From: Isoetes taiwanensis
Lineage: Eukaryota > Streptophyta > Lycopodiopsida > Isoetales > Isoetaceae
Direction: 5' to 3'
Assembly: GCA_021234155.1 (NCBI GenBank)
Contig: JAJEKV010000074.1
Location: forward strand, 124,001 to 188,000
Length of the DNA: 64,000 nt
Both the position numbers and the translations under genes were made by a program. Under the pieces are notes generated by a model, which was not told where the DNA came from, searched no databases, and saw nothing but the letters and a program-made list of their open reading frames with translations. Every line of letters starts with the position of its first letter. The stretch's first letter is position 1. Positions 4,190-61,444 of this stretch are shown here, in pieces.

Positions 4190-4202
4190 ACTTCCATCAT
4201 CA

Positions 4203-4256
<54 letters not shown>

Positions 4257-4375
4257 CCATCGTCGTCATCGTCATCGTCGTCATCGCGTCATGCGTCATC
4301 GTCATCGTCATCGTCATCATATCGTCACCGTCATCGTCATCGTCATGCGTCATCGCCATCGCCGTCATCGTCATG

Positions 4376-4442
<67 letters not shown>

Positions 4443-4503
4443 CTCATCCTCATCCTCATCCTCATCCTCATCCTCATCCTCATCCTCATCCTCATCATCA
4501 TAT
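4190..4503. repeat. Compound hexanucleotide microsatellite (TCATCG)n then (TCATCC)n
   Basis: The tract is near-perfect TCATCG units from about 4195, with variant GCGTCATGCGTCATCG blocks in the middle (about 4288-4380). It then switches sharply at about 4440 to TCATCC units and ends in TCATCATCATAT. All frames are open and give Ser-, His/Arg- or Val/Ile-type low-complexity peptides. These are artefacts of the repeat and not genes. Confidence 0.95.
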
Positions 4504-23497: not shown

Positions 23498-24114
23498 CGG
23501 ATCGCCATTCTGGGAAAGGACGAGCGCCTATATTAGGCCATGGTCGCTTTCCGCTTGGTTATCGGCGTCTTCTCACAGCAGCATAAGTCGTATTTAATTA
23601 AAGTGGGACTCATTCCATTCCCATTTTTTTTCGGAACCCTGTTAATTTACATGAAAAAGAGCACCCCGACCCGAAAACTATCCTTAATTCGATTTTTTGT
23701 CTAGAACTCTGCATCGAAGCTTTCCTCCAGTTTTCCCTGATTAGCGAGTCGAGAACAAGAACAATGCAACTGAAACAAAGGAAATTCATTAAAGATTGAA
23801 ATCAAAGTTCTAGATTGAAACCAAAGTTTACAATGGTTGAAGATACCATGATGGTCGGGCTGACACAAATATTACATCATCTTCGCACACAGACCACCCA
23901 TGGGAACAACATACGAGCAAGGTCGAGGGCGTTCCAAGCCACAAGAGCAACTTGAAGAGAATAGAAATCGAACACGCTTAGGCGACATGGCTCCCGATCA
24001 TGTCCTTCGTTTTGCGATTTGTCTTGGGAAAGGCAAAATCAAGTTAGTGCAAGTGATGCTACTGAGACAATACAAATAAGAAAACAACCAGGTTCTAAGG
24101 GCCATTTAGAAGAA

Positions 24115-24960
24115 TGTAGGTATGAGGCCTTTCTCGACTTCTTGAGTCGAGAAAGGCCCTCCGATATAGCTTAGAGCCCAAAAACAAAAAACAAGGAAAA
24201 AAAAATTCCTTCTTTTTCTAAGTAGGCAAAAAAAAATTTTTGAGGGCCTTTCTCGACTTCATGAAGTGAGAACGACCAAAGGCCCCTCTAATGGCCTTTT
24301 CGACTTCATGAAGTCGAGAAACGTAACTTCAGTAAAAATTTTTTTTTTCTTTTTTTAACTAGGAAAAAAGTTTTTTTTTCAAGAAAATTTTTTGAGGGCC
24401 TTTCTCGACTTCGTGGGTCGAGAAAAAGCATCGAGAGTAAAAAACGCAGCTTTGGGGGTTGAGAAAGGAAGCTCAAAGCGAAAAACGCAGTCTTAGGGGT
24501 TAGAGGCCTTTCGACCTTGAGTGAAAGGCGACTCAAAGCACCAAAGTTTAAGGTTTTAAGGGTTAGAAGGTTTTCGACTGAACTGGGCGTCGAAAGCGTT
24601 TCAAAGCTTAAAAACGCAGGTTTTAGGGGTCAAAGATCTTTTCGGCTTCATGAAATGAAAGGCGTACCAAAGCTTAAAAACGCAGGTTTTAGGGTCAAAA
24701 AGATCTTTCGACTTCTTGAGTCGAGAAAGGCGACTCGTGCTTAAAAAAAACAGGTTTGAGGGTCTTTCTCAACTCATGAAGTCGAAAGGGCTTCTAAGGC
24801 CCTTCAAAGTAAAAAATATAGGTCCGAAAGTGGAAAACATAGTTCTAAGGCCCTTCAAAATAAAAAAACGCAGGTCTAAGGCCCTTCAAGATGAAAAACA
24901 CAAGTCTAAGGCCATTTGGATTGTGAAAACACAACAAGTCCGAGAAGGTCGAAAATGAAT
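24115..24960. repeat. Array of about nine imperfect hairpins with a shared spacer
   Basis: The core palindrome CTCGACTTCNTGAAGTCGAG varies from unit to unit. The best examples are the 14-bp stem at 24126-24158 (GGCCTTTCTCGACT, loop TCTTG) and the perfect 18-bp palindrome TCGACTTCATGAAGTCGA at 24300-24317. Others lie near 24393, 24502, 24570, 24637, 24700 and 24758. Spacers share AAAGCTTAAAAACGCAGG and TTTAGGGGTCAAA. A related hairpin (9-bp stem TTCTCGACT) lies at 26899-26920, near the other end of the element. Confidence 0.8.
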
Positions 24961-25310
24961 AAGCTTCAAACATCATATCATATTACTATACCTTTGTTCA
25001 CATGTGATCAAACATACAACAAATGTGGCGAACCTACTTGCCTACTTGTCTCCCTTTTTTAATATGTCAATGTTTATCTATAGCTTTATTCAAAGATACC
25101 TTTCTTAAATGAAACAGTATATACTATGTATTTTCTAATAAGACAATATCCTATACTATGTATTTTTTAATAAACACAATATCCTATGTATTTTCTATGA
25201 AAAAATACCCTCCCCATAAATTTCCTATGTATTTTCCAGTAATGCCTAATGCACATGTAAATAGCAACATATGCATGCACCTATAATACACATTATAACT
25301 TAAAAATAAT

Positions 25311-25390
25311 TTACCCTTATAACTAATAATAATGCACCATATAAATATACTTACCCTTATAACTAATAATAATGCACCATATAAATATTA
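25311..25390. repeat. 40-bp perfect tandem duplication
   Basis: The unit TTACCCTTATAACTAATAAT... ATAAATAT occurs twice at 25311-25350 and 25351-25390, differing only at the last bases. Confidence 0.9.
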
Positions 25391-25796
25391 TGCCCACGTG
25401 ACTTATTTTCAAGACTCACTTTACTCTACTCTACGGGACTTATTTTCAAGACTCTTACACCCCGCCCTTTTTTCCCCCCAATATTTGAATTTTGAAATTT
25501 GGTACACACCTTTGTGCCGCAGATCATGTTGTACCACTTGGAAAGGAGAAACCACTCTGGTTTCCGGAAGATCTGCAACCACGAATCCGTTTCTTGAAGA
25601 ACAACACCCACAAGAATCGCATTCGCATTCATTTTCCTTGCTAAAATTATCCTGGGGAACTATGATGCCCCCACAAGAATCACATTTGCACCATTTTGGG
25701 TCCACATTTCCGACCACGAAATTATCGGATCTGCCATAGCCGTTTCTTCAAGAACAACACCGGCAAAGGCGCTTCAAGCGTGGCTTCTTAGCGGCT

Positions 25797-25868
25797 TTCG
25801 ATATCGGCGATTTTGGAGATAAGCACTATGATATCGGCGACTTTGGAGATAAGCTCTCGATATCGGGC
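25797..25868. repeat. About 31-bp minisatellite, 2.5 copies
   Basis: The unit GATATCGGCGA(T/C)TTTGGAGATAAGC recurs at about 25800 and 25830, and starts again at about 25858. It sits inside the TIR element. Confidence 0.8.
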
Positions 25869-27049
25869 TTCAAAGCGGCTCACGCTATCAATTAGACTAG
25901 TTGGGATAATGGATGGCGCTCATCTTTATTCTTTGCTATCTCTGCTGCGCGTCGACCTAGCGGTCGCGACAACTCGGCATGGTGCTCCATCTCAAACTTG
26001 TCTCCATTACATTCATAGCACGCAAAGCCTTAAACCGCTTCGCAATCCGGCTGCAAAGCCTTAAAGCGGCTTCTTGAATCCGCGCCAATGCCTTAAACAC
26101 GCTTCTTAAATCATTGCTTTCTCAAACTCAAGGCCTTCTCAAATCTCGATTCAAATCGTGCTTTCTCAATGCCTTCCAAATCACGTGCCTCGCCTTTTCC
26201 TTATTGAGTAGCATAAAGTCTGCGGCTGGTTTCGAAGCCAGCCCCCCTAGGTTACGGTTTACATGGAGATCTGGTAATTTTTGTCCTGTTCTTGGATTGA
26301 TTTGTCTGATTACGGCTTGATTTTCCGGCTTCGACATGATTTCGATCCTATCTTGGGTAAGCGACACCTTCTTCTTCTTGGATGGGAAATGAGGCCGCAC
26401 CTTTTGCTTTTCCTTTCATTCCAGGTCGGCGAGCGGGGTTTGGAGGGCGTGGTTAGCGTTTGGAGGCTTTCTTTGGGGCATAGCCAAAGGTCGTTTTCTT
26501 GGTGAAGAACAGAGGATAGAAGAATGCGGAAGCAAAGGGTAAAAGCGCAAGAAGAGCAAGAAGAGCGGAAGCAGCGGTGGCCAACAAGAAATGGGAAAGA
26601 AGCTTGGAGCAATTCTAATGCCTCGAGTTGAAAATAAGACCGCCCAATCCCCCGCCGAAGATGACGGATCGGGGAAGGCGCCGGGTACAACAAGGGAGCT
26701 ACCGCAGATGCTTTGATAGGGCCTTAAGCTTGGCAAGAGAACTTATTTCTAAGACTTCTGTGAGCAAGGCGCATCTACACATGTTTCTTCACTTCCCTAG
26801 TGGCAAAAAACCGCCCCCTGGCTCGGACCATCCAAGTGCCGGATGCGGGGTTGAAGGGTGCAAAGCTGATCTCTTGGAGCACACGAAAGACTCTTCAATT
26901 CTCGACTCACTAGTCGAGAACACCGTTTAAATACCACCAAGTTGGCTATTATTTCCTGATTCATTATATATATATTGTTTTTTTTTAATTAATTATAATA
27001 ATGTTAATTATATTTATTATAATTATATTGATTATAATTACTAAAGGTT

Positions 27050-27365
27050 GCCCATCTTTGCCCCCTTTTGCCCTTTCTCTCCCCTTCCCATTTGCCCCTT
27101 TGCCCATCATCCTCCTCCCCCAGTTGCCTCTTTGCCCATCCTCCTTCCCTTCTCTCGGTTGCCTTTCCCATCCTCCTCCCTCTCCGGTTGCCTCTTTCCC
27201 ATCCCCCCCCCCCCTCCCAATTGCCTCTTGCCGTCCTCCTCCCCCTCTCTAGTTGCCTCTTGCCCCCTCTTCTCCCCCCTTCCGAACTTCCTCCCTCCCC
27301 TTCTTCTTTCTAACTTTAACCCCCTTCCTTACTTCTCTCAACTTCTCCCTTTCCCTTCCCCTCCC
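27050..27365. repeat. Polypyrimidine tract
   Basis: More than 300 bp are nearly pure C/T on the plus strand, with TTGCCTCTTTCCCATCC-like units. It gives Pro/Leu/Ser artefact ORFs. It lies just inside the right end of the TIR element and could form triplex-type structures. Confidence 0.85.
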
Positions 27366-27501
27366 CGATCTAACTTCTTGATTCAATGAAAAAATTTTTG
27401 TCCCATTTTCAGTCCGAGTCCCAAAATTCGAGATTTGTCCCACTTTAATTAAATACGACTTAGCATTCTTCGTTCTCGTAGCTTCGATGTTCCTTCATTC
27501 A

Positions 27502-29065
27502 ATGGATTTCTTCCCCAGCTTCTCCATCAGTCTCGTGCTTCACCTTCTCGCCATTTGCTCCTGCCTGGCGATTTTCGTCATTATTCTTTGGACGGTACGC
27601 TCCCTTCTCTTTCATGCTTAGCACGATTCTACGGATTGTCCTTCTTCGTCTGTCTTGGTTGTGCATGGTTTTTCTTTATTTCTATTGTTCTATTGGGATG
27701 TTCGGGCGTGATGGATTCGTTTTTGGACTCTTGGTCCGTTCTGTTGAGTGATTTGCCTATGTACTGTGGATGTTCTCTTGTTGGATGGACTGGGCGTTGG
27801 GGCGCATGCTTCTTTCTAATCCTTGTTTTATCTGATCTCTCCTTGGTTCCTTCGAGCTTCTTCTCTATTTTCGGGTCTGCCGTTGTTCTTGGGTTGCGGT
27901 TTGATCATCTCTTTAGCCCTTTCCGGCTCAAGCTTATCTGTGTTTTTGGTTTCATTTTATGCTCACTTCACTTTTGTTTCGTCTTTCCCCTTCTTGTTCT
28001 GCCTTTTACCCTGCATTATGCTGGCTGCATGGAGTTCTCGTTGCCGTGGTGTTATCTCGAGCTCTGCGATTCCGTCTCTGCTCTTAGCCTCTCTTGCATG
28101 GCCGTAACATGGGTTACATTTACCCCTTCTATTGCCTCTTGCCTTGGCTGTCCTTGCCTTCTGCGATTTGGTTTCCCGCCTTTGTTCCCTGGGGTTTCTC
28201 CTTCTTCACCAGGCGCCGCTTGCATAGGATGCAATTGGGGATTTCTTGTCGCCCGCGCATATTTGTCTGCCGGACTTTTAACCTTGGCTTGCAGGTTTCC
28301 GGCCGGGTTGTTTCCTCTTAGTGCTATGATGGCCAAATCCGTTCATTCTGGCTCCTTTCTGGTATGTTTTTCGCTTATCTGCCATCAGGTCTTACATGCG
28401 TAGCTTTTGGTACGCTTCTTTTAGGTTAAGCTATTTTTTCTTTGGATTTTTTTTCGCCCTTTGGTTTTGCATGTTTTTTCCAGCCGTTCTTGGCCTCCAT
28501 TCACTCAGCTTGTAGGTTGTCGCCGTTCGTTCCTTCCCCTTGTGCTTCTTGAGCTTTATATTGCTGGTCATGGCTTCCCTGTTTCCCATCGTGGCTTTGG
28601 GCATCCAGTTCTTTGCCGATTACTTTCTTTGTTCTGTTCTCAGGTCCGATGCCGTTCCCTTGTCCTTTGTGCTCTGCAAAAATTTTCCCTCTGGGCTTTT
28701 TTCCGCCTTTTTCACCACCAGAGATTCCGATGACCACGCACCATCTTTATGCATCGCATTTGGAGGCTTTGCACCCTTCTGCTCGGAATGCCTTGCAGCT
28801 TGAACATGCGGACATCGACTGGCCTGAGGAATTCTTCCGGGCGTTGCGTCTTTATGCTGCATTTTCTCCTGCTGTTCGTAGGGTCTTCCGCTCGTATCGA
28901 TTTGTTGATCCAACTCGGGCTCGTTTTCTGGGAGACATCATTTTGCTATGGGGCTTTTCGTCTTTGCGTCCCATACAGCTGCGCGAGTTTTTGCTCATTT
29001 TGACTGAGTATCCTCCTCAATTTCTCCCGATTTATCCGGCAATTTCCTTGGGCCTCCTTGCTTGA
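27502..29065 (+). CDS. Candidate spliced gene with membrane-anchor first exon, unrecognised
   Basis: ATG at 27502 opens a 31-codon block ending ILWT before a GTACGC donor (27595). It contains one hydrophobic span (LVLHLLAICSCLAIFVIILW) that would act as a signal anchor. A second block, after the acceptor CACCACCAG (28721), starts MTTHHLYASHLEALHP at 28730 and runs 111 codons to TGA at 29063-29065. It has a protein-like composition (DIDWPEEFFRALRLYAAF, RARFLGDIILLWGFSS). The two blocks do not join in phase directly, so other exons would be needed. The long open frame at 27555-28403 between them is hydrophobic and T-rich and looks like intron sequence. No family is recognised. The left end is only 41 bp from the TIR element. 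Confidence 0.3.
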
Positions 29066-31520: not shown

Positions 31521-34147
31521 CTAGTAATGGTGCCCAGCGTTGCTGGGCATAATTCTAGAACCTATAAATGTTAGAACCTGTGCATTTGCATATTGTTGTT
31601 CATTGTGTGTTGCACCTTTACCTATAGCTACTTTAAAAGCACTTTGCATCTTAGAAATACTTGGATGTTGTTAATTGTGTGTGTACATAAAATATGAAAC
31701 TTGTGCTCATGAGTCTTGCTAACTAAATGTGAAACATTACAAAAAATAAAATATGAACATTGCAAAGGATGAAAGATGGGGTCAATGGATTATCTTGAAT
31801 ATATGTATCCCATATGTGCCTATTGTAATGTTGTAGCAAAGCTTTATTTTGAACCATTAACAAAAAGTGTGTTGCAAAAAACAATAGTAACAGAGAATTT
31901 TATCAACTGTGGACCAAATTGATAAGGAGTGAGCAATCCATTGTCCCACGCTTTCATTTCTGTTAAAGGAGTAAGCAAGCCATTGTTTGACGCTTTTGCT
32001 CCCATTAAGGAGTGAGCAAACCATTGTCCCATGCTTCCATTCCCATTCATAATTACCATTGTCCCAAGCCAAAGAGAAAAAATAAGTTCATTTTTTTTTC
32101 TAACATGGCATAGAAGAATCTTGGTGGAATCTCAACATTAAATCATGTTCTTAGGAGGAATTTCAACATTAAATCATGCTCTCAAAAGACACGGCATAGC
32201 AGAATGTTAGTGGAATTTCAACATAATCATGTTCTCAAGTTTGAGTGACACACCATCTCATCATAACAGGGACACTTCCTTTTACAATATATCTGCATTG
32301 TAAAACTCACAATTCTTGGTAATTGATATCATAGAGCTACTTGTTTTTATCTTGAGGGCCAAGAACATTTCTAATTAGTTTTAAAGAATTTGTGGTAGCC
32401 GGTAAATGGGTAGAAATTGACGTGGAATCTCCTTCCTCGGTATTGGGATAAGAAAAGGAGGCATGTTATATAGAAAATTCAAGCAAGTAAAACGAGAATG
32501 CCTTGAAGATACCAATCACTGCTACCACATGTTCATCGCTTACGATATGTTTTATTTCTTCATGCCCACCAAATTTAAGCACCCCATCTACAAAGTTCGT
32601 GTGCGGCATTTTGTGAGCAAGTTAGACCTTTTATTTATCTACAACCTAAATGACCTCAAAATCTCGAAGTAGAATTGCTTGGAGGGAACCGCAAGGGTGA
32701 GGATATCGGATGCCTACTATAAGAACTATACCATCGTTTCATATTAATGAGGCGCCTTTATGCATTAAAGTCGTAGATGTTTCGCAATTCCTTAGTCAAC
32801 TCCTCATTTCTTATATTGGCGCATGATGTCTAAACCAAAGTTCATATATGACCATGTGAACGATATCATACACGGTAGAGGTGGTGTATGCCACACAAAG
32901 TGATTTTGAACCTGCAAAAATAACAAATTAGGATTTAAAACATGTCATCATCTAAGATAATTTATGCCTATTTCGGAATTGAAAATTTTTCTAAATAGCT
33001 AGCATGTCTTGCCCTTTGTTACCGCGAGGAATGCATACATGCGGTTTGTTGCCCTTATGAAAATTAGTGTGAAGGAAGATGCAAAGAAGAGAACTTACTT
33101 GTAGCGGACCTTCATGCGATCGTGGTCTGTTGATGTGTGATAGGCTACATAATAGACTTTAAATCAAAAGCATCTTGTTCTCTCAAGAAAAGAGCAAAAT
33201 TCGCAATTCATGACATCGTTAAAGGGTAAGTCATAATAATCGGATGGAATTCTTGCAAGAAATTGTTTGAACTTTAGTTTATGAACAACAAATCTTAACA
33301 AACTACCAACACATATAAGATTCCTGGAATGATCTAAGGTGAAATACACGGATGTTATTGTTGTTTCCCCATGTAATCCTCGGTTCGCCATCTTGCCAAG
33401 CATGGGCAAATCCAAAATGTAGAAATTATCTCCACATTTATGCGTGTAGAAACAAAAGGAGAGAAGATGAGCTTACCACTACAAAATGCCCGGCTTTTAT
33501 TCTTGTTTACGCAAGTTAGCTTACCTTTGTCAAAAGCTAAAAGCTCAGGAAAATGATAAGATGGAAAATGCACATAATCTCGCAAAAAAAAAACACAGTT
33601 CATTGGCTATTTTTGGCGAGATAGCTTAAGTCACGAATTATCGAGAGCATCCTAATCTCGGATGGATCGGAGATGGACAAAGTATTACTCACAGTGGTGA
33701 AGCCTAAATCCATCCTAACCTCGGATGGATCTGAGAGATGGGGAAATACTATAGCAGGTGAAGCCCTTGTATAAAACAAAATCCAGAAAGTAAAGGGATT
33801 TGCGAAGTAAATCCAGGAAGTGAAAGAGTAAATCCAGGAAGTGAAAGAGTAAATCCCGGAAGTGAAGGAGTAAAGTGAGGATTTCAATGCCTGGGAAGAT
33901 CTTTGCGAGTTCATAGTTTTACCAATAGTAAGATTCACCAAGTTCAAGACCACACGCCGCCATCCTTTCGGCCTGACCCTCCCCACCTGCCATATCTGCT
34001 TTAGACCTTGTCCTGCTCCCCGTGGAAAAAGTGAGCGAGAAGAAATTAGGGCTATCTGGGTCGTCCAATTCTTAGGTTAAATCTGAACCGCCCAATTTTT
34101 AGGGCGAGGTTGAAGACAGACATACATTAAAATTTTATAATATAGGA
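31521..34147 (-). mobile_element. Intact-ended non-autonomous Helitron, 2,627 bp
   Basis: On the minus strand it starts TCCTATATTATAAAATTTT (34147 downward). It ends with the hairpin GCCCAGC-AAC-GCTGGGC, a six-base spacer CCATTA and CTAG (31524-31521). The flanks are A on the 5' side and T on the 3' side, the Helitron target rule. Copy B has the uninterrupted site CATTAAA|TATATATTTT at 45734/45735, proving insertion without target duplication. Inside there are only short frames with no Rep or helicase, so it depends on another element. The 5' terminus resembles that of Helitron copy B (TCATTACTATATTATT...TTTTAATG), which suggests that the same transposase served both. Confidence 0.92.
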
Positions 34148-34161
34148 TTTAATGAGGTTAT

Positions 34162-35760
34162 GTGTATTATTTTTTTTTTATTACATCGTCATTTTTGGTA
34201 AATGATGTATTTGTTTTGTTCCATTTTTGCAGCTTTCACAAAGTAGGTATGTCACATTGCAAACTAGACAATAAGAGTAATTTGGAGAATTACCAATTTG
34301 ACGTAACTTTCATTGGTAAGCCTTGCGCAATTATACATTGTCTTACTTTATTTAGTTTAAAGAAATATAGCTCAACGGTTCAAATTGTAATGTGTGCTTT
34401 GTCCAGAGGTGTTGCTATATTGAGATAATGGCTTGGACATTGCATGAACAAGAAACATTAATACAATTTTGGAATAGAAATAGAGTTGGATCAAAGAAAG
34501 CACGTGCAAAGCATTTCGTAGATTCACATCCAAATTATGAAAAAAAATGGCTTACTTGATAACACTCTCGACATTGTTCAACATCCTCTTGTAGCATCAC
34601 CAAATGGTATTCATGACATGAATGTTGATATGAACGTTCACCAATGTGCTGAACAACATGTTGTGGATAGAAATACACATAACAGGTATGCAATATTTAA
34701 TACTTTTGCAGCTTTCAAGACCATGTAAACTTCATGGATGCTATTCATGATTTCACACACTTTGCAATGTTTAATACTTTTGCAGCTTGCAAGACCATGT
34801 AAACTTCATGGATCCTACTCATGATCAAAATGTTTGTCCAAGATCCATCAATAATATTGAGCTCAATATGAGTACAGAAGACGATATTGCATCAAGTTCT
34901 TGGAAGAGGAGTTCAAAACATTCTTCACAATGTCATATTCAACCTGCTACGATCAATCCCACATCCATCAAGCGTTGTCAAGTACACGCATAACATTTAT
35001 GAATTTGCAAGTAATACTAGCAATATTGAAGTCCATTCTATACATAACACGAATGATGGTAACCATCTCGATCTTCGATATTGAAGACTTTTCTATTAAT
35101 GGTATTCATGATTTTGAAGGCTCGGTTCAAAACAATAAAGGTGTTGTACCATCTATAAATGCTCTTGGTGGTGTCAATGGTGGTGTCAATGTGGATCTTT
35201 GTTCCATGTCCATGAACAACCTTCACCAACATGGTGATGAACAACATAGTGTAGAGGCAAACAAACATAACAGGTATGCTTTAAATGAAACTCTAATGCA
35301 CGTACAATATTTCTTAGGTTTAACACTTATTATGTTGCTCCACTTTCTTAGCACAAATTTTATAATATTTAATGGTTTTATAGGTTACAAGGTTGTGTAC
35401 AATTCGTGGACGCTATTTCTCATCAAAACGTTTGTTCAAGCTCCATGAATAATATAGAGCTCAACGTCACTAAAGAAGACAATATTGCTTCAACTTCTTG
35501 GAAGAAAAGAGCACATTCAAAACATTTGTCACAATGTGATATACAACTATCCACCTCTGATCAATCAAATCCATCAAAATTACTAAGATTACAGGACAAT
35601 GGTATATTTGCAAGCAATATTAGCACCATTCAAGTCGATTCTTTACACAATGTCGATGATGGTAACCATGTAGACACTGATATTGGAGACATTTGTATTA
35701 ATGGTATCTATGATTTTGAAGAGGCGTCTGGCGATGTTCCAATAATTCCCCTGTCTTTCT
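34162..35760 (+). pseudogene. Helitron copy A, N-terminal region with duplicated exons
   Basis: The opening block encodes VNDVFVLFHFCSFHKVGMSH, followed by a segment with IQFWNRNRVGSKKA. Two later blocks (about 34850-35130 and 35440-35730) are diverged copies of one unit of about 95 residues. Each starts NNIELN, passes through IAS(S/T)SWK, SQC(H/D)IQ and ..DGNH.D, and ends NGI(H/Y)DFE. The blocks are separated by intron-like sequence with CAGGTATG-type edges. The function of this Ser/Asn-rich domain is not recognised. The same duplication is present in copy B, so it predates the inverted repeat. Confidence 0.65.
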
Positions 35761-37330
35761 TGCAAGAGGTTAAGATTCTCTTACGGATGATGAAACAAAA
35801 GACACATTTCAAGAACCTTAGCAATGTCTTGAACAAAGTTTGGTATAAAGGGGGCGATAATACATCTTGCAAGCAATGCTATAATAAAGGCAACTTCTAT
35901 AGTCACGAGAATATTGAATTGAATGTTGTACCACCAAACTGTTCTTATCTTTGCATCCACTAGAAGAAAGGTTAATATCATTGAGAATACCCTTTGCACA
36001 AATATCTATTTCACAAGCGGGCATAGGGCAACATCATTATCAAAGGTCTTTGTTGTACATGTTGCTTCAAACATTAAAGAGCGACCCAAGATTCACTTCC
36101 TAGATTTCTTGATGAAGATGCAACTATTAGACTTGAGTTGAGGCGAAGAATAAGTGATACAAATGCGTATATGGAAGGTTCTATCGGACCACGCCATGTT
36201 ATGAATGCACTTTATGAATTAAAAGATGAAGATTTATATAAAGAATCGGGTATTCAAATAAGCGAAGGCGGCTATCAACTATTGGTGTCAAATCACGATA
36301 CACAAATGTGAATCGAAAACTTAGGAATTGAATGAATTACATTTGGAACATCAAGGTAACACATTAGTGCAAAACTTCTTAAAAAGCTCAACATATCCGG
36401 GATTTTCAAGATCAAAAGGTAATTGTAGCTCACGGAGAAGGAAACCATCAATGGGTTTCTTTATGGTTTCAAATGTAGAGGAATCTTGTTTTCCAACTCT
36501 ATTTGGAGGAAAGAAAAGACCTCCACAAATTGAGAAAGTTTACATATAAGCAAATTTGTGAATGGGAACTCTTGAACATAGATCGTCGTTTGCAAAGGAA
36601 TATAGAGAACATTTTTTCAAATTTATCATGGATGAAATTCATTTTGTGCAAAGGCACGCAAACTACATGCTAAGAAGAGGAAGAAGAGAAGATAGAAACC
36701 TCCTCTTTGCATCTTATGTTTTAGACACCACAAACTTGAGAAACTTATTGAAAGACAATTTGGGTTTCAATGATTTAAAGGCATTAAGAACATCACCAGA
36801 TAAGTTGAATCATGTGAAAAAGGAAGCAATGGCTATGTTAAGATTCCTTGGTCCAGCATCATTGTTTGTAACTTTTAGTATGGCAGAGAAATATTGGACA
36901 AATTTGATTGTGGCATTGAAGCATCTAAATCGATATTGTTGAAGAAGGAACTCACGCAAATTGGTGGGACAATAGGCTTATCATAGAATTGACAAAGGCG
37001 AGATCCATTAACATGTGCAAGGTATTATGTGCATCGCATGGATGCAATGAAAAAGCTTCTAGAGAATGATCCTTCAATTATAGGTGGGGTCGTTGATAGT
37101 GTTTGTGTTACCACGGTTTCAAAATCGTGGAAGTCCACATGATCACATATTCTTGTGGGTAAAGAATGCACCACAATATCCTTATGATTCACGAAGCGGA
37201 TCATCGAGTTTGTAGATAAATTCATGATGGCCCGATCATATGTTATTACGAAGAATTACGTGATATTCAAACACATAACCATTCTAGATCTTGCGGGAAG
37301 AAAAAAACGTCAAATGTAGGTTCAACTATC
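35761..37330 (+). pseudogene. Helitron copy A, Helitron-like N-terminal and Rep region
   Basis: The block CKQCYNKGNFYSHENIELNV followed by VPP is the Cys-rich lead-in of plant Helitron proteins. The segment at 36562-36942 contains MLRFLGPASLFVTFSMAEKY, matching the helitron_like_N domain, where LFxT(F/L)SxAE is conserved. After it come ARYYVHRMDA-type and HPHNILVGKECT-type remnants, where the Rep nuclease motifs should be. The frame changes at about 36940 and again near 37100. The two Rep tyrosines cannot be assigned because of these breaks. Confidence 0.7.
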
Positions 37331-39640
37331 CTCAACCTCAATGAGAAAGACATGCATCTTATCCCCAAGCAATAGCGGTCTGTGAAGAAGAAAAAGAGCA
37401 TAAAGTGAGATGAAAGTCTTAATTGATGAATACCTAGAAAGCAATTATGACAAAGGTGACAAAGGGATTGATGATTTGTTGAGCAATCTCCAAATTCTGA
37501 GAGGAGCAATATATTAATGTTTTATGCCAAACAATTCACGGGCCTAAAGTATTTATGCGAGGAGAAAATTAAAGATGCATATACAAATCCCTTCAATCCT
37601 ACTATATCTCGACTATGGAGAGCAAAACGATTCTGATATATCATTGATCCATATCTTGGATTGCAGCATCTTGTCTTTCTTATATTACCAATCGAAACTG
37701 ATATCTCGGCAACATTATCGAAGATTATAGAAGAATGTAAAGTGAATAATGTGGATACAATACAAAGGATCTGAAAACTTCGGTAATGCATTCATACGTT
37801 CTCAAAGAGGTTCTGTGCAACAAGCTCTATTCCTTCTATTAGGAATGCGATTACAAACATTATCTCGAATATAATATATATTGATACAAGTGAACCACAC
37901 AAAGCGTACCTTAGACTCAAGTCAAAAGAGCGGTTGAAACAACTTCGATCTGCTATAGCGATATTGCGGCTTCTTACGTGATAGACAAATATAAAGCGGG
38001 GAGAATGAACTTGAAGAACTATCATTGGCAGTAGTTGTATCCTCATATATCGACTCAAAGGGTAAGTACATAGACAAGAGAAGAATGAATAGAAGACATG
38101 AAACAAAGATCACGGTTATTCGTTTTTCAACAACTACAATATGACAATAGATATAGAAGCGTGGGCATATGAGCGTTTGCTTTTGCATTTGCCATTCGAA
38201 ATGAAGATGAGCTTTTATGTGGTCAAAGCACATTCCATAATGCATATTAGCATTGTCAACAACAAATTGAAGAAGCACACAAGAAATTTGTATTGAGTTC
38301 ATCTAATGAATTAGATGAAGTATGGACTCATATAGAGCAAATAGCTGATGACTTACATGAACAAGGCTTACACCATTGTGGCAACAACGAAGAACATGGA
38401 GGCAACAATGAGTTCGATGTGGGGTTGGACATGAATAATGCATTACATCAAATCAAGTACAAGTTCCTCAATATCATCCATACGAACAATTACAAACAAC
38501 GAGTTTATGCCCAATGATCAATACTATAATTTGGTGAGAACACTAAACAAAAGCGAGATTGTTATATGATGACATAATGTATAGGAAGATTGTGGATGAC
38601 ATTTCAGCCAATTTTATTATTCCTTACGAGGAGGTCTTGGGAGTTGGTAAATCGAGATTGACAAGATGTTTAATAGAAAGCTTAAAGAGGTGTTATGAAA
38701 TCAAATATCAAATGATCGCCATATCGACATGCATAGTTCTTTGCATTATTTGGAAAAGTACCAAATAATATAAAAAGGAACAACAATACATTCGCATTTG
38801 GATTAACTCCAACGAAGCGAGACGACAAACAATATAGTCTACCCTCTGGGACAAAGGCGCAACTAGCAAAGGAATACATATCGTGCCTTAAGTTACTTGT
38901 TCTAGATGAAATATCTATGATTGGAATGCCACTTTTATGCACTTGGACCATCTATGTTGTGAGTACAAGTATTGTCAGGCGTTCACCCTTTGGTGGTTTA
39001 GACCCTAATAGTCGATTGGAGATTTATACCAATTGCCTCCTATATGCGAGAAGATGGTATTTGCTAATCACGAAGAAAAGGATCTCAAGAGGCTTGGTTC
39101 TGTCTCAATTCGAGAACTCTATCATTCATGGAAATCTAATATAAAGTACTATGAATTAAAGGAAATAGTGCCAACAAGATGATCAAATATTTGCAACAAT
39201 TCTATCAAGAATCGGTTGGCTCAACAAACACAAGATGACATAGACTTCTTGAATTCCATATGTGTAAGAAGGTCTATGTGAAGGCATGCAAATCCCATTC
39301 ATCTTTGCAACAAATAACAACAAAAACAAGCATAATTTCGACGTTTTCCAAAAGATGATTGGTGATGAAATAGTTTGTGATTGGAGGATATTAGTCAACC
39401 ATCATGTCCCCATGGATTACATCTTCCTTGGATCCTCACAAAGCGAGGGATTACATAAGCAACTCAACTTAAAGAAATCTATGATAGTTGACCTAACGAT
39501 GAATATTGATGTGGAAGATGGTTTGGTAAATGAATGCGGATGGTACATTTCAACAAATGAGCATTGCAAGCGGGGAGCAAAGTATTATGGATACAATTCT
39601 CGGATAGAGACACGGGAAAAGCATTAAGGAGAAGAAAAGG
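37331..39640 (+). pseudogene. Helitron copy A, Pif1-type helicase region
   Basis: The linker KVLIDEYLESNYDKGDKGID leads to a helicase with a Walker A relic, LGVGKSRLTRCL (about 38637-38680). Walker B is seen as LKLLVLDEISMIGMPLLC (about 38892-38940). A PFGGLD block follows (about 38985). The C-terminal helicase part includes NHHVPMDYIFLGSSQSEGLH-like sequence (about 39390-39450). Pif1 helicases unwind DNA during rolling-circle transposition. Stops and shifts occur throughout. Confidence 0.7.
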
Positions 39641-40700: not shown

Positions 40701-41297
40701 ACAAGGTATGGCTGATTAAGAGTTAAAAAGGTGGTCTAACTTATGTTGTGGGTATTTTAGAAATAGGTAGTATAAACCAATTTGTTGACTAAGTATGATT
40801 GCTTATCTATATGTTGTTCTTGCTAACAGTGATGATAGAGCACGATATTTGATTTCATAAAACCTCTTTAAGCTTTCTATTAAACATCTTGTCAATCTCG
40901 ATTTACCAACTTGTTGCGCACCTCCTATAAGGAATAATAAATATGAGAATCATCGACTATTTGCTCTATATGAGTCTACTTCATCTAATTCATTAGATGG
41001 TGAATATAAATTTCTTGTGTGCTTCTTCAATTTGTTGTTGAAATGCAAATATGCATTATGGAAATGCTTGACCACATAAAGCTCATCTTCATTTGGAATG
41101 GCAAATGTAAAACAAACGTTCATATGCTTACGCTTCTATATCTATTGTCATATTGTAGTTGTTGAAACGAATAACTGCATCTTTTTTGTTTCATGTCTTC
41201 TATTCATTCTTCTCTTGTCATGTACTTACCCTTTGAGTCGATATATGAGGGATACAACTTCTGCCAATGATAGTTCTTCAAGTTCATTCTCCTGCTC

Positions 41298-42971
41298 TTA
41301 TATTTGTCTATCCTGAAGAAATTTTGCAATATCCGATTCTGCTATCGAGTGAGTTGTTTCAAGCTTGTTCTTTTGACTTGAGTCGGAAGATGCGTTGTGT
41401 GGTTCACTTGTATCAATATATATTACAGTTCGAGATAATGTTTGTAATCGCATTCCTAATAGAAGGAATAGAGCTTGTTGCACAGGAACCTCTTGAGAAC
41501 GTATGAATGCATTACCGAGTTTTCGTATCCTTTGTATTGTATCCACATTAGGGCAAAAGTATGCTGGTGGGTATCAAAAGCAGGCATCCGGACACATGCT
41601 GACAGCACTCATATAGCACCCCATATGGCAGCTTGTTTAAGGTGTTACTGGTACTAGCACACGGTAATTAGGTAATCAATAGAAATATGTAACAACTCCA
41701 ATTAATAACAAGTGGAATACTATGATAGAATAGTATATCCAGGGTGCTGATCTAAGTGCTGGGGCCGCGTTTTTTTGATACCCACTAGCATACTTTTGCC
41801 CATTATTCACTTTACATTCTTCTATAATCTTCGATAATGTTGCTGAGATATCAGTTTTGGGATTGGTAATATAAGAAAGACAGTATGCTGCAACGGCATA
41901 TGGATCAATGATATACTGTAAATCAGTGTTTGCTCTCCATAGTTGAGATATAGTAGGATTGAAGGGATTTGTATATGCATCTTTAATTTTCCTCTGCATA
42001 AATACTTTAGGCCCAGGAATTGTTTGGCATAAAACATTAATATATTGCTCCTCTGTAATTTGGAGATTGCTCAACAAATCATCAATCCCTTTGTCACCTT
42101 TGTCATAATTGCTTTCTAGGTATTCATCAATTAAGACTTTCATCTCACTTAGCGGCTCTTTTTTTTCTGACTTTGCTATTGCTTGGGGATAAGATGCATG
42201 TCTTTCTCATTGGAGGTTGAGGATAGTTGAACCTACATTTGGCGTTTTTTCTTCTGCAAGATCTAGAATGGTTATGTGTTTGAATATCCGTAATTCTTGG
42301 GGTAATAACATATGATGGATTGTCATGAATTTATCTACAAACTTCGATGATGGATTACGGTGAATCATAAGGATATTGTGGTGCATTCTTTACCCACGGT
42401 AACATGTGATCATGTGGACTTCCCGATTTTGAAAGCTGTGTAACACAAACACTATCAACGACCCACCTACAATTGAAGGATCATTCTCTAGAAGCTTTTT
42501 CATTGCATCCATGCGATGCACATAATACCTTGCACATGTTAATGGATCCGCCCTTGTCAATTCTATGATAAGCCTATTGTCGACCAATTTCGCATTAGTT
42601 CCTTCTTCAACAATATCAGGATTTAGATGCTTCAATGCCACAATCAAATTTGTCCCTTTGCCATACTAAAAGTTACAAACAATGATCTTTGGACCAAGGA
42701 ATCTTAACATAGCCATTGCTTCCTTTTCACATGATTCAACTTATACGGTGATGTTCTTAATGCCTTTAAATCATTGAAACCCAAATTGTCTTTCAATAAG
42801 TTTCTCAAGTTTGTGGTGTCTAAAACATAAGATGCGATTGAGGTTTCTATCTTCTCTTCTTCCTCTTCTTAGCTTTTGTAGTTTTTGAGCCTTGCACAAA
42901 ATGAATTTCATCCATGATAAATTTGAAAAAATGTTCTCTATATTCCTTGCAAAGCGGCGATCTATATTCAA
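41298..42971 (-). pseudogene. Helitron copy B, Rep to helicase linker relics
   Basis: In minus-strand order, RRGRREDRN (42860s) leads to NPDIVEEGTNAKLVDNRLII and ARYYVHRMDAMKKLL, then KVLIDEYLESNYDKG and LQITEEQYINVLCQTIPGPK. ISQLWRANTDLQYIIDPYAV (about 41950) is the conserved LWRAN-x-D-x-QYI block of Helitron proteins, better kept here than in copy A. The last block (41546-41298) has VPVQQALFLLLGMRLQ. Frame breaks separate the blocks, and a MITE interrupts between them. Confidence 0.72.
41551..41801. mobile_element. 251-bp MITE with 29-bp terminal inverted repeats
   Basis: The ends GGGCAAAAGTATGCT (41551 onward) and AGCATACTTTTGCCC (to 41801) are inverted over about 29 bp with one mismatch. 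ATTA flanks both sides. Copy A at 37745-37750 shows the empty site (reverse complement CCACATTATTCAC), confirming both limits. GGGC-type ends recall Harbinger, but a 4-bp ATTA duplication is not typical. No coding capacity. Confidence 0.92.
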
Positions 42972-43824
42972 AGGTTCCCATTCACAAATTTGCTTATATG
43001 TAAACTTCTACGCAATTTGTGGAGGTCTTTTCTTTCCTCAAATAGAGTTGGAAAACAAGATTCCTCTATATTTGAAACCATAAAGAAACCCATTGGATGG
43101 TTTCCTTCTCCGAAGCTTCAATTACCTTTTGATCTTGAAAATCCACGGATATGTTGGCTTAAGAAGTTTTGCACTAATGTGTTACCTTGATGTTCCAAAT
43201 GTAATTAGTCAATTCCTAAGTTTTCGAGTATTCACATTTGTGTATCGCATTTGGTGATCCAATAGTTGATAGCGGAGTTCGTTTATTTGAATACGATTCT
43301 TTATATAAATCTTCATCTTTTAATTCATAAAGTGCATTCATAACATGGAAATTATGCGATAGAACCTTCCATATCGCATTTGTATCACTTATTCTTCGTC
43401 TCAACTCAAGTCTAATAGTTGCATCTTCATCAAGAAATCTAGGAAGTGAATCTTGGAATTAGGTCTTAATGTTTGAAGCACCATGTACACTTGGCACCTT
43501 TGATCACGATGTTGCCCTATGCACCTTGTGAAATAGATATTTGTGCAAAGGGTATTCTCAATGATATTAACCTTTCTTCTAGTGGATGCGACATAAGAGC
43601 GGTTGGTGGTACAACATTCAATTCAATATTCTCGGGACTATAGAAGTTGCCTTTATTATAGCATTGCTTGCAAGATGTATTATGGCTCCTTTATACCAAA
43701 CTTTGTTGATTACATTGCTAAGGTTCTTGAAATGTGTCTTTTGTTTCATCATCTGGTAAGAGAATCTTAACCTCTTGCAAGAAAGACAGGGAATTATTGG
43801 AATATCAGCAGACGCCTCTTCAAA

Positions 43825-44117: not shown

Positions 44118-44388
44118 CTTCAAAATCATAGATACCATTAATACAAATGTCTCCAATATCAGTGTCTACATGGTTACCATCATCGACATTGTGTAAAGAA
44201 TCGACTTGAATGGTGCTAATATTGCTTGCAAATATACCATTGTCATGTAATCTTAGTAATTTTGATGGATTTGATTGATCAGAGGTGGATAGTTGTATAT
44301 CACATTGTGACAAATGTTTTGAACGTGCTCTTTTCTTCCAAAGTTGAAGCAATCTTGTCTTCTTTAGTGACGTTGAGCTCTATATTAT

Positions 44389-45054
44389 TCATGGAGCTTG
44401 AACAAACGTTTTGATGAGAAATAGCGTCCACGAATTGTACACAACCTTGTAACCTACAAAACCATTAAATATTATAAAATTTGTGCTAAGCAAGTGGAGC
44501 AATATAATAAGTGTTAAACCTAAGAAATATTGTACGTGCATTAGAGTTTCATTTAAAGCATACCTGTTATGTTTGTTTGCCTCTACACTATGTTGTTCAT
44601 CACCACATTGGTGAAGGTTGTTCATGGACATGGAACAAAGATCCACATTGACACCACCATTGACACCACCAAGAACATTTATAGATGGTACAACACCTTC
44701 ATTGTTTTGAATCGAGCCTTCAAAATCATGAATACCATTAATAGAAAAGTCTTCAATATCAGCATCGAGATGGTTACCATCATTCGTGTTATGTATAGAA
44801 TGGACTTCAATAGTGCTAGTATTACTTGCAAATTCATAAATGTTGCGTGTACTTGACAATGTTGATGGATGTGATTGATCCGAGGTGGCGGGTTGAATAT
44901 GACATTGTGAAGAATGTTTTGAACGTGCTCTCCTCTTCCAAGAACTTGATGCAATATCGTCTTCTGTACTCATATTGAGCTCAATATTATTGATGGATCT
45001 TGGACAAACATTTTGATCATGAGTAGGATCCATGAAGTTTACATGGTCTTGCAA
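44389..45054 (-). pseudogene. Helitron copy B, N-terminal duplicated-exon region
   Basis: The minus-strand frame starts DHVNFMDPTHDQNVCPRSIN, passes through the KRRARSKHSSQCHIQPATSD unit, and then NGIHDFEGSIQNNEGVV and NNLHQCGDEQHSVEANKHNR. The second unit lies at about 44410-44130 and is cut by the 43825-44117 insertion. This copy keeps a longer open frame than copy A. No catalytic residue is recognised. Confidence 0.6.
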
Positions 45055-46411
45055 GCTGCAAAAGTATTAAACATTGCAAAGTGTGTGAAATCATGAATAG
45101 CATCCATGAAGTTTACATGGTCTTGAAAGCTGCAAAAGTATTAAATATTGCATACCTGTTATGTGTATTTCTATCCACAACATGTTGTTCAGCATATTGG
45201 TGAACGTTTATATCAACATTCATGTCATGAATACCATTGGTGATGCTACAAGAGGATGTTGAACAATGTCGAGAGTGTTATCAAGTAAGCCATTTTCTTC
45301 AAGTCTAGAAACTTTAGCCAAGATTGCTCTAATAGAATATTCATAATTTGGATGTGAATCTCTGAAATGCTTTTTTGCGTGCTTTCTTTGATCCAACTCT
45401 ATTTCTATTCCAAAATTGTATTAATGTTTCTTGTTCATGCAATGTCAAGCCATTATCTCAATATAGCAACACCTACGGACAAAGCACACATTACAATTTG
45501 AACCGTTGAGCTATATTTCTTTAAACTAAATAAAGTAAGACAATGTATAATTGCGCCAAGGCTTACCAATGAAAGTTCGTCAAACCTGGTAATTCTCCAA
45601 ATTACTCTTATTGTCTAGTTTGCAATGTGACATACCTACTTTGTGAAAGCTGCAAAAAAATGGAACAAAACAAATACATCATTTACCAAAAATGACGATG
45701 TAATAAAAAACATAATACACATAACCTCATTAAATATATATTTTATTATGCAAGTATTATTGGACAACGACGATAATTTTCGACTAGAGAACAAATATTA
45801 CTCCTTTTCCCTTATCTATGGCATAAATTATGTTGGATAATATTGTGCAAAGGAAATAACTTTGAATCCACAAGGTCGTTTCCTTACTTGTTTGTTCCAT
45901 CACAAATACATAAGCATCAATATTCCCAGCTTGTTTGCGGCACCATCCATTCTGCAATATATAGCATACAACTAATACAATATTCTTGGGCCCAAGGACA
46001 TATTACGGAAAAAAATGCCATAATTTTCCATGCGGACAAAAAAAATTATTATTGAGGTCTCGGCGAATTTATTGAATTCTCGGTGGATCGAGAGAAAAGA
46101 GGTCAATTATATCGAATATGATAAATAATAGCGGGGGTGGAACAATATGTTTGCGGGACACGAAGGAGAAGCAAAATGCAGAGAAGCTACTCAACCGGAC
46201 CTTAGATACTCTAGAGGAAGCAATAAAGTTGCAACAACATGCATTCATGTGCACGAGAAATAAGCACTAATGACTGTTTTAGCAATTTTTAAGCGAATTC
46301 ATCTAAATTGGTAGGAGCAATATGATGAAAAATTTTGTAGCCAATAAGAAAGAAGGTCAGAGGACATTAAAATGAATAATATAGTAATGATATTTTCTAT
46401 GTAGGTGTCTC

Positions 46412-47918: not shown

Positions 47919-49714
47919 TGTGACGTCCCCTACTCGTATACGGTGCCCGCACCGTATACAAACAGGAGTTCATCCCCCATACCAGCTCCATGCTAATACA
48001 GGGCCCTCCACATGACCTTCGCAACCGTGGACGGGTTCCGATTGGGAAGAGTGGAAGGGTCATTGCACCGTCTCCCTCGGGGCCTACCTAGGCTGCGGGC
48101 GTAAGCGTACATGTCATTAGCACATACTGGCAATATCATATGACCATCACGAAGGATGGCCCTCCACATATCTGCATAGACAAAGATCGCACATCACATA
48201 GGAATCCTACCCAAGGCTCGGACTCAAAGGGATGGCCCGGCGGCTTGGGTCTCCGAGTTCATTGCGGGCATTTAATTCATGGCAATGGATTTTGGCACAT
48301 GAACATGGCTTAGGGTTGTCCCTCCATCCGCCCCTCCTGCGTACACTTTGCGAGATAGGTTGAAGAACTTGGGGTTGGACCGTAGCACTGCGGGATCATA
48401 GCCAAAGGGGCTATAGCGGGGTTACATCTCCCCGGACCCGATGAGGCGGTAGGGAGGTTTCCCCTCCCACCGGATGATCAATGCCATAGCGAGGCGGACT
48501 AGAGGACACCAACCGTCCGTACTTTCGACTTTAACCCCTTGAAGGGAACTACCACCGCGACCCGGTCCCGACCCCGTGCCAGGACAACCAGCGCACCGCG
48601 GGGACCTATTTTGAAACCCCGGTGGCACCGCCGCCGGGCCGCGGCTTCTTATCCCCAGCGGTGTCGAACTCATACTTCGGGGTGCACGCGGTCCACGGTA
48701 TTAAGCGCTTAGTCTGCGGTGCCCTCGGGTAGACTTTACATCCCGAGAGAGCAACCGCTATGGGACACGACCACCCTTATCAACCCGATTCGACCCCTAA
48801 GAACACAACACAAGGCTGTTTATGCAGCGGGCCGCCAACTACGGTGTGCTAGAGAGGCTACTCTAGGAGCATCAACTACAAGGCTTTAGGTCTCTACCCC
48901 CTTCCCAATACAAAGGAGTTCACGGAGATACATCATCCATGTACATCACGGAAGAACTAAAGAACAAGATCTAATCTATATCATAGAGTTAGGTTCTTTA
49001 GTTAGAATCCGCTATCTAGAGTTCTAGAGGGCTGCTATGGGCAATCTAATAGGCTAAACCTCTTGATTCAATGCCTAAAAATAGGGTTTAGACTATCTAA
49101 TTGGCCAAATACGATCCTTGAGGGCTCCTCGACTGAGCTCGACCATCCTGGCGGCTTCGAATCTCGAGGAACTAAGGATGTAATTCTCCCAATCAGAGTG
49201 CGGGATGCGGTTTTTGGTGTTGAGGCAGACCAAAGCGAGTTCTGAAACCCTAAAATGAAAATTAGGTTAGTTAGGGTTTCCAACCCTATATAGACAAAGG
49301 GGTGGCTAGGGTTTCCAATTATCCCCTTTTGGCATGTGGGATAATTGGTAATGGGCCCACTTGCCTTTAAGGGCTAGGTGGCCAAATGTGCCCACATGGA
49401 AATGTGTGCACCCAAATGTGCTCACATGGAAATGTGTGCACATTAATGAATGTGTACATTGGAAAATGTGCACCTTAATTACTCTATGGGTATGGCCCAC
49501 TTGGCATCAAGTGGCCACATGGAAATGTGTGCCCACATTAATGTGTACATTGGAAAATGTGCACATTAATGCTAATGCACATTCTTAGCAAGTTGCCCCT
49601 AGGGGCTACCCCTTGGCTATCGTTGGCGTACCGTCAATCGGGGTGGCGTGTGCGGCGTGGCGTGGCGCGATTACAATATATCGTCACGGGGCGTATCGTC
49701 TTTGGAGCGTCACA
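47919..49714 (-). repeat. 3' LTR of the Gypsy element
   Basis: On the minus strand it begins TGTGACGCTCC and ends GACGTCACA, giving TGTGACG/CGTCACA terminal inverts. Near its end, GTATACGGTGC and GCACCGTATAC (47936-47959) form an 11-bp inverted pair around CC. Short repeats of CACATGGAAATGTGTGC occur at 49395-49535. A TATATAGGG promoter-like box lies at 49293-49285. Confidence 0.9.
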
Positions 49715-49727
49715 TTCTCCCCACCTT
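49715..49727 (-). promoter_or_regulatory. Polypurine tract of the Gypsy element
   Basis: AAGGTGGGGAGAA on the minus strand abuts the 3' LTR start exactly. This is where plus-strand DNA synthesis would be primed. Confidence 0.85.
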
Positions 49728-59656: not shown

Positions 59657-61444
59657 CATGGCGTCCCCTACTGCATTATCACGGTGCCCTTGCACCGTAT
59701 ACAAACAGAGTTCATCCCCATACCAGCTCCATGCTATCTGGGGCCCTCCACATGACCTTTGCAAAACCGGGCGGGTTCCGGTGGGAAGAGTGGAAGGGTC
59801 ATTGCACCCGTCTCCCTCGGGGCCTACCTAGCTGCGGGCGTCGCATACATGTCGGTGCACATACGACAATATCATATGACCATCACGAAGGATGGCCCTC
59901 CACATATCTGCATAGACAAAGATCGGCACATCACATAGGGAATCCTACCCAAGGCTCAGACTCAAAGGGATGGTGGCGGCTTGGGTCTCGAGTTCATTGC
60001 GCGGGCAAATTCATGGCAATGGATTTGGGCTGGCACATGAACATGGCTTAGGTTGTCCACTCCATCCGCCCCTCCTGGTACACTTTGCGAGATAGGTTGA
60101 AGAACTTCTGGTTGGACCGTAGTCTTGGGATCATAGCCAAAGGGGCTATAGCCGGGTTACATCTCCCTGCACCGATGAGGCGGGTAGGGAGGTTTCCCTC
60201 CCACCCGGATGATCAATGCCATAGCAGGCGGACTAGAGGACACCAACCGTCCGGTTTTCGACTTTAACCCACTTGAAGGGAACTACCACCACGACCCGGT
60301 CCACCCCCGTGTGCGACAACAACCGCGACACGGGACCTCGGCTGAAACCCCCGGTGGCAGTGCCGCCGCCGCGGCTTCTTATCCCCAGCGGTGTCGAACT
60401 CATACTGGGGCTCTATCTATCTATTAAGCGCTTAGTGCGGTGCCCTCCGGGTAGACTTTACATCCAGAGAGCAACCGCTATGGACCTGACCACCCTTATC
60501 AACCGGTCGACCCTAAGAACACAACACGGGCGGGGCTATTTATGCAGGCCGCAACTACAGTGTGCTAGAGAGGCTACTCTAGGAGCATCAACTACAAGGC
60601 TTTAGGTCTCTACCCCCCTTCCCAATACAAGGAGTTCACAGAGATACATCATCCATGTACATCACAGAAGAACTAAAGAACAAGATCTAATCTATATCAT
60701 AGAGTTAGGTTCTTTAGTTAGAATCTGCTATCTAGAGTTCTAGAGGGCTGCTATGGGCAATCTAATAGGCTAAACCTACTGATTCAATGCCTAAAATAGG
60801 GTTTAGACTATCTAATTGGCCAAATACCTGATCCTTGAGGGGCTCCTCCTCGACTGAGCTTCGACCATCCTGGCTGGCTTTCGAATCTCGAGGAACTAAG
60901 GATGTAATTCTCCCCAATCGAAGTGCGGGATGCGGTTTTGGCTGTTGAGGCAGCCAAAACAGAGTTCTGAAACCCTAAAATCGAAAATTAGGTTAGTTAG
61001 GGTTTCCAACCCTATATAGACAAGGGGGTGGCTAGGGTTTCCAATTATCCCCTTTTGGCATGTGGGATAATTGGTAATGGGCCCACTTGCCTTTAAGGGC
61101 TAGGTGGCCAAATGTGCCCACATGGAAATGTGTGCACCCAAATGTGCTCACATGGAAATGTGTGCACATTAATGAATGTGTACATTGGAAAATGTGCACC
61201 TTAATTGCTCCTATGGGTATGGCCCACTTGGCATCAAGTGGCCACATGGAAATGTGTGCCCACATTAATGTGTACATTGGAAAATGTGCACATTAATGCT
61301 AATGCACATTCTTAGCAAGTTGCCCCCTAGGGGCTACCCACTTGGCTATACATTGGCGTACACGTCAATCGGGGTGGCGTGGTGGCGTGGCGGATGGCGC
61401 ATACAATACACGCCCCGAGGCGTAATAGTCGGTGGAACGCCACA
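59657..61444 (-). repeat. 5' LTR of the Gypsy element
   Basis: It is a direct copy of 47919-49714, 1,788 bp, ending GGAACGCCACA on the plus strand. Differences from the other LTR are mostly one- to four-base indels, with few substitutions. TATATAGGG on the minus strand (61018-61010) is the probable promoter box, shared with the other LTR. Confidence 0.9.

Follow-up and report, generated by a model that had tools for sequence, protein, structure and literature searches.

An element that has perfect inverted ends and duplicated flanks, and in which no transposase motif can be recognized, raises the question of where it belongs and how it was moved. Such an element, 3877 bp long, lies in a 64,000-nucleotide stretch of the genome of the quillwort Isoetes taiwanensis (contig JAJEKV010000074.1, positions 124,001 to 188,000; the whole stretch is referred to as the window), and a first-pass annotation, made from the letters of the window, had proposed that it may represent an undescribed DNA transposon family. 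The analysis described here leads to the reading that the element is a non-autonomous member of a DNA transposon family with terminal inverted repeats and a characteristic DUF7869 protein, that this family likely belongs to the Sola1 group, and that the window copy was moved in trans. We assign this reading a probability of roughly 0.85.

Boundaries and copies of the window element

The two termini of the element are complementary at 25 of 25 bp, in agreement with the perfect inverted ends that had been annotated at 23585-27461, and over 26 bp when the neighbouring T/A is included. Apart from these termini, the 25-mer does not occur in the window, even with 3 mismatches allowed, and 100 shuffles yielded no match. 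Both flanks carry the annotated 5-mer AGCAT, and its status as a target duplication was assessed using empty sites in the genome (1,658,258,908 bases in 1110 contigs). A 238-nt query, in which both window flanks were joined via a single AGCAT, matched across the junction at 39 of 40 scored places, and 27 reach query position 200 or beyond; the remaining scored match is the window's own left flank. The flanks of the window element are themselves part of a repeat. In the four empty sites that were read, the junction is gapless and contains one target copy each, which is AGCAT in two sites and AGCCT in the other two, and therefore the insertion boundaries and the 5-bp duplication of the window element are genuine. 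A 316-amino-acid open frame on the plus strand of the window (27453-28403) starts inside the element's right end and continues into the flanking repeat; it has no Pfam match.

Genome-wide, the 25-bp end was found at 1661 forward and 1709 reverse sites (up to 2 mismatches), compared to 0 and 0 sites for the reversed pattern that served as control. The window element is thus one among well over a thousand relatives in the quillwort genome, which are referred to as family 1. Pairs of ends were drawn from 60 of 100 listed end matches, for which a potential partner lay close by or elsewhere on the contig; for the remaining 40, the list contained no suitable opposite-strand neighbour. Among the 29 opposite-strand pairs obtained, 25 have a 4-bp target duplication, one has a 5-bp duplication (C16) and one a 6-bp duplication in poly-A, while shuffling of the partners yielded a mean of 1.3 of 29 pairs with a 4-bp duplication. 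Ten further copies were fetched, and all eight of these with both ends within the fetched stretch have a 4-bp duplication (8/8). Hence, the paired copies and duplications whose tabulation the first-pass annotation had recommended exist (29 pairs and 8 further copies), and the duplications are non-random; the family norm, however, is 4 bp and not 5 bp. The duplicated sequence itself varies and can be, for instance, AATT, ACTA, TAGG, TCAT, GCCA or CTCA. Pair lengths fall into 3.9-4.6 kb (8 pairs), 5-9.4 kb (3), 11.2-15.2 kb (13) and more than 20 kb (5), the last of which are presumably due to nested insertions. Two of the pairs lie on one contig (C128:91575-106371 and 130592-141805) and share identical 8-bp flanks; they probably derive from a single insertion that was duplicated later by segmental duplication, so that the 29 pairs represent at most 28 events.

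The left 516 bp of the window copy match at least 39 other places at 95-97%, and the copy L019 aligns over nearly the entire window element at about 90%; the window element is therefore a member of a non-autonomous subfamily. The copies L014-L021 and the window copy show 94.5-98.8% identity across their first 500 bp, a range that is biased upward because L014-L021 were chosen as the copies that best match the left end of the window element.

Coding relatives and a candidate transposase

Of the 31 stop-to-stop frames of at least 60 amino acids, a Pfam scan covered 10 interior frames and 2 frames crossing the ends of the element. No transposase domain was found in these 12 frames (best E 0.19), and tblastn searches with the transposase and ParB-like proteins described below gave no match in the window at E 1e-3. 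The earlier statement that there is no transposase motif thus holds for the window copy, but not for the family, as a longer relative encodes a likely transposase. A search for such a relative had been suggested, and one was found at C907:9786513-9798279 (hereafter C907), a coding copy of 11,767 bp, which has both ends (1 and 2 mismatches) and is flanked by the duplication AAAG. Using blastn, C907 matches the window element in two places, both of which are terminal (236 bp at the left end, 62 bp at the right end; identities in Table 1). Its DUF7869 and ParB-like coding regions lie on opposite strands: the DUF7869 frame has a length of 830 amino acids (E 8.4e-44) and is followed by a stop and another 155 amino acids, and the opposite strand contains a 397-amino-acid ParB-like frame, a 288-amino-acid frame and a 229-amino-acid NIF-type phosphatase frame. 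The NIF/FCP1-type phosphatase frame seen in a family 1 element (PF03031, E 2.9e-10; L022:6746-7432, minus strand) has decayed relatives in C16 and C22 and is probably a captured host gene. C16 and C22 are decayed copies of about 12.1 kb, which are collinear with C907 and contain a fragmented minus-strand gene; one C16 piece of this gene matches PF25273 (DUF7869; E 4.2e-10), and three C22 pieces alone gave no Pfam match. A genome search with one C22 piece yielded 150 scored matches, among which the 830 amino acids of C907 form the longest open frame. In two further coding copies, no duplication was found in the fetched stretches, C1035 having one end only and C1034:32.8 Mb no end.

The Isoetes genome holds at least four families of DUF7869 elements, and a gene on the strand opposite to DUF7869 is found in all four (4/4). 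The transposase of family 2 (L008-L010) is 26-27% identical to that of C907. This family has its own ends (AACAAG[A/G]TTGCA...), carries a ParB-like gene divergent to the transposase gene and shows 4-bp duplications in 10 of 11 both-ended copies, a total made up of 8 among the 9 fetched pairs plus L010 (AATT) and L009 (AATG); in the copy L008, no paired ends were found. Family 3 (C1033, C920) has the divergent layout of the other families, and its left-side ends were not found; in C1033, the ParB-like frame is followed by a methyltransferase-like one. Family 4 (C920) is about 10 kb long, starts with AAGCACG and has the duplication ACAT (1 of 1 copy). In L051/L052 (C920:551501-568500), a family 4 element is nested cleanly inside a family 3 ParB-like gene and is flanked by the duplication ACAT.

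DUF7869 has 150 scored matches of 9908 rough candidates in the Isoetes genome and 0 matches in 14 control genomes. The Pfam model PF25273 matches family 1 with 149.9 and 138.6 bits (E 8.4e-44 and 2.4e-40), family 2 with 173.7 and 174.8 bits (E 4.4e-51 and 1.9e-51) and family 3 with 179.4 bits (E 7.7e-53), the cut-off being 26. Among 24736 Pfam models, DUF7869 is the sole significant match of the transposase frames, besides one weak helix-turn-helix match (E 0.25). The motifs D-x-M-D-Q, L-D-N...E-N-K-N and G-H-T-H-D-x-I-D are invariant in six aligned DUF7869 frames, and the conserved core, D-x-M-D-Q-x-K-T, Q-L-D-N...E-N-K-N and V-G-H-T-H-D-x-I-D, contains aspartates that are also visible in family 3; we infer that this core would fit a DDD/E enzyme. 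The DUF7869 protein is very probably the transposase of these elements, mainly because it is paired with end-bounded, mostly 4-bp-duplicating elements in families 1, 2 and 4, the three whose ends were located. In the proposed mechanism, the DUF7869 transposase would bind the 25-bp ends and cut the element out, with D460/D463, D594 and D633/D636 of the C907 protein as predicted catalytic aspartates, and would insert it with a stagger of 4 bp, occasionally 5 bp. The window copy, which is without genes and retains the ends needed for recognition, could thereby be mobilised in trans, and it is tempting to speculate that its interior palindromes are remnants of putative ParB-like binding sites.

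Palindromes, accessory genes and other features of the window

The frames opposite the transposase are likely ParB-like and methyltransferase-like, as judged from profile matches. The ParB model TIGR03764 weakly matches L010 (E 0.0021) and L009 (E 0.041), and weak matches to ParB-like PHROGs were obtained for L050 (E 0.013 and 0.039), L011 (0.036) and L010 (0.4), all of which fall around a common G-x-H-S motif. No ParB-like PHROG was found for L009 and L052:1154-1726, and a comparison of the ParB-like frames with Pfam revealed no ParB family. The methyltransferase hints are a weak match to UPF0020 (E 0.0026), which extends across an IADIPYGF motif, and one to N6_N4_Mtase (E 0.061); the family 1 frame at the corresponding position has no methyltransferase match. 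Neither kind of frame matched a ParB among solved structures; the matches obtained were weak, with a best E of 0.027, and one of six structure matches in one such search was an RNA methyltransferase (E 0.84). A ParB-like frame compared with phages gave matches at E 2 or above only.

Long palindromes are repeated in three of the families. Family 1 contains the palindrome TTCTCGACTCGCGAGTCGAGAA and variants thereof, which occur 17 times in C907 (up to 3 mismatches), family 2 contains GTGTATTCCGGAATACAC, present four times in L010 and seven times in L009, and family 3 contains CGGTATAAATTTATACCG, with 17 occurrences apiece in two 17-kb stretches. In a search of seven stretches and of the window outside the element, each family motif was confined to stretches of its own family and absent from the outside sequence. 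Genome-wide, family 1 has 7435 sites (1 mismatch), family 2 has 2585 and family 3 has 4415 (both exact), and there are 0 sites for the backwards patterns. In the copies that were read, the sites are mostly located near the ParB-like gene or between the ParB-like and transposase genes. No multicopy palindrome was found in family 4, and the idea that palindrome arrays occur in all DUF7869 families was therefore dropped. Palindromes with arms of at least 7 were also counted and compared with the mean of five shuffles: the window element has 5 (vs 1.4), C907 16 (3.8), C16 16 (6.8), C22 15 (4.2), L019 11 (2.0), L017 7 (3.4), C4 4 (1.8), C1 3 (3.0), L010 13 (4.0), L009 11 (4.6) and the window outside the element 14 (11.6) and 34 (22.0). 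As these counts are just moderately above those of the shuffles, the argument rests on the long, repeated, family-specific palindromes.

The family palindromes are, speculatively, candidate recognition sites of the ParB-like protein. DUF7869 elements might mark themselves in this way: the ParB-like/methyltransferase-like protein would bind the palindromes of its own family, similar to bacterial ParB on parS, to recognise, spread on or methylate the family's copies, a proposal that we put forward tentatively and consider doubtful at present. If it were true, the window hairpins would be decayed sites, and non-autonomous copies could be recognised or silenced together with their parent; the elements would be eukaryotic transposons with their own sequence-specific recognition, perhaps methylation, system. 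The palindromes may instead be functionless by-products of repeat-tract or foldback amplification and the resemblance to ParB a matter of chance, an explanation that deserves serious weight, if at less than even odds. It gains from the weak ParB matches, from the one family of four without a multicopy palindrome and from the scarcity of sites in some copies, since the window copy has one family-motif site within 3 mismatches, besides looser ones, and C16 has none. It would leave unexplained why three families each have a private palindrome of 18-24 bp in several to many copies, and why L009 and L010 of family 2 keep the same core within surrounding DNA that is unalignable by blastn at E 1e-10.

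The interior hairpins and tandem repeats described in the first-pass annotation are present (Table 1), and, by their resemblance to the family motif, the hairpins include decayed copies of the family-specific palindrome.

Table 1. Coordinates of the window element and its features (positions in the window)
Feature	Position	Strand	Evidence
Whole non-autonomous element, 3877 bp	23585..27461	.	Ends, duplications, genome-wide copies, empty sites
Left terminal inverted repeat, 25 bp	23585..23609	+	Inverted-repeat and genome searches
Right terminal inverted repeat, 25 bp	27437..27461	-	Inverted-repeat and genome searches
Target duplication AGCAT, left copy	23580..23584	+	Flank sequence and empty sites
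Target duplication AGCAT, right copy	27462..27466	+	Flank sequence and empty sites
Left end region common with the 11,767-bp coding relative C907	23585..23820	+	91.5% over 236 aligned columns
Right end region common with C907	27400..27461	+	93.5% over 62 bp
Palindrome, 14-bp arms, 5-nt loop, like family motif TTTCTCGACTCGCGAGTCGAGAAA	24126..24158	.	
Palindrome TCGACTTCATGAAGTCGA, like family motif TTTCTCGACTCGCGAGTCGAGAAA	24300..24317	.	
Palindrome TTCTCGACTCACTAGTCGAGAA, family motif with 2 mismatches	26899..26920	.	
Tandem repeat, ~30-bp unit	24834..24913	+	
C+T-rich tandem repeat, ~32-bp unit	27064..27280	+	

Other repeats are found elsewhere in the window. A large inverted duplication at about 34-46 kb consists of the pieces 34139-35721 / 44118-45742 and 35715-38351 / 40950-43824, which are 89-97% alike across several kb; it possibly represents two opposite-oriented copies of one repeat or another foldback-like element. 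A sequence of about 1.8 kb is repeated directly at 90% identity (47921-49715 and 59659-61445, 11.7 kb apart) and could be an old pair of long terminal repeats or two copies of one repeat, and an array of about 52 copies of the hexamer TCATCG is located at 4197-4501.

Classification and comparison with known elements

The DUF7869 elements probably belong to the superfamily Sola, group Sola1: they make 4-bp duplications, their ParB-like gene lies on the other strand than the transposase gene, and Sola is known in moss and ferns. As reportedly described by Bao et al. in 2009, Sola makes 4-bp duplications and uses a DDD enzyme. Several points weigh against the reading of the window element as a non-autonomous member of a DUF7869, likely Sola1, family. 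The 5-bp target duplication of the window copy and of C16 is a minority form, 4 bp being usual, and 2 of the 29 end pairs have no duplication. All ParB and methyltransferase matches are below the curated cut-offs or have weak E-values. Catalysis by the DUF7869 protein is inferred from conserved residues only, and searches with the DUF7869 transposases revealed no relative among IMG/VR and GTDB contigs and no match among solved structures. The likely membership in Sola is argued from duplication length, gene layout and taxonomic plausibility, Sola having been likened by description.

A degenerate member of a known superfamily, i.e. CACTA, hAT, Mutator, piggyBac, Kolobok or KDZ, would be a very improbable source of the window element. 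Hairpin-rich subterminal arrays also occur in CACTA elements, which is a feature in common; however, the duplications of CACTA, hAT and Mutator have a length of 3, 8 and 9 bp, and 4-bp duplications without a fixed sequence fit neither these nor TTAA-only targets. CACTA, hAT, Mutator, Harbinger (3 bp) and Tc1/mariner (2 bp) were ruled out on the basis of the mostly 4-bp duplications and since no such Pfam domain was found in the scanned frames of the coding relatives; the first-pass annotation had seen no match to these five in the end sequence. piggyBac and Kolobok require a TTAA target and were ruled out by duplications such as AATT and TAGG. Pfam contains a model for KDZ, and this superfamily was excluded because the Pfam matches of the transposase frames are DUF7869, the only significant one, and the weak helix-turn-helix match. 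The DUF7869 elements could also constitute a separate, unnamed superfamily, which would have no more in common with Sola1 than the 4-bp duplication and the ParB-like accessory gene. In favour of this view, the elements were not linked directly to Sola by sequence, and DUF7869 was not found in the literature searched; nevertheless, we consider it unlikely, as duplication length, opposite-strand layout and the occurrence of Sola in moss and ferns agree with Sola1 and as the conserved aspartates fit the DDD/E transposase of the superfamilies among which Sola is listed (PMC9587614).

In the literature searched, there was no mention of the family, of DUF7869, or of Isoetes together with a DNA transposon or Sola, apart from one unrelated paper, and the available main text of the I. 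sinensis genome paper contains neither "DNA transposon" nor "Sola" (PMC10541799). These negatives exclude supplementary tables, and a repeat library may already list the sequence under some label. The proposal of an undescribed DNA transposon family is therefore upheld in part: the window element is indeed a DNA transposon, has paired copies and real duplications, and its family was not found in the literature searched, but it probably does not represent a new superfamily, as its features point to Sola. A formerly unclassified repeat thus becomes a defined family with a coding relative. Pfam gives no function for PF25273 (DUF7869), which matches the transposase frames of families 1-3 and is located here in mobile elements; a likely function as transposase can now be proposed for this domain, which is numerous in the Isoetes genome.

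The closest described counterpart is Sola1-1_Ec32 of the brown alga Ectocarpus, a large DNA transposon in which a ParB-like and methyltransferase gene faces the transposase gene from the other strand (PMC12477816), a layout that the Isoetes elements probably share. Compared by description, it has a length of 21.5 kb (PMC12477816), whereas the Isoetes elements are about 8-12 kb long. Its description, as far as available, mentions no palindromes, and no search aimed at palindromes in Sola elements was made; the opposite-strand ParB-like gene is reported there for one Sola1 element (PMC12477816) and is not a defining trait. Among land plants, the accessible parts of the respective reports place Sola1 in Physcomitrella (PMC9033089), SOLA in Azolla, more than in Salvinia (PMC6786969), and Sola in Ceratopteris (PMC6890710). 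Likened by description, the Sola elements of Physcomitrella, Azolla and Ceratopteris thus reside in hosts that are, like Isoetes, seed-free land plants.

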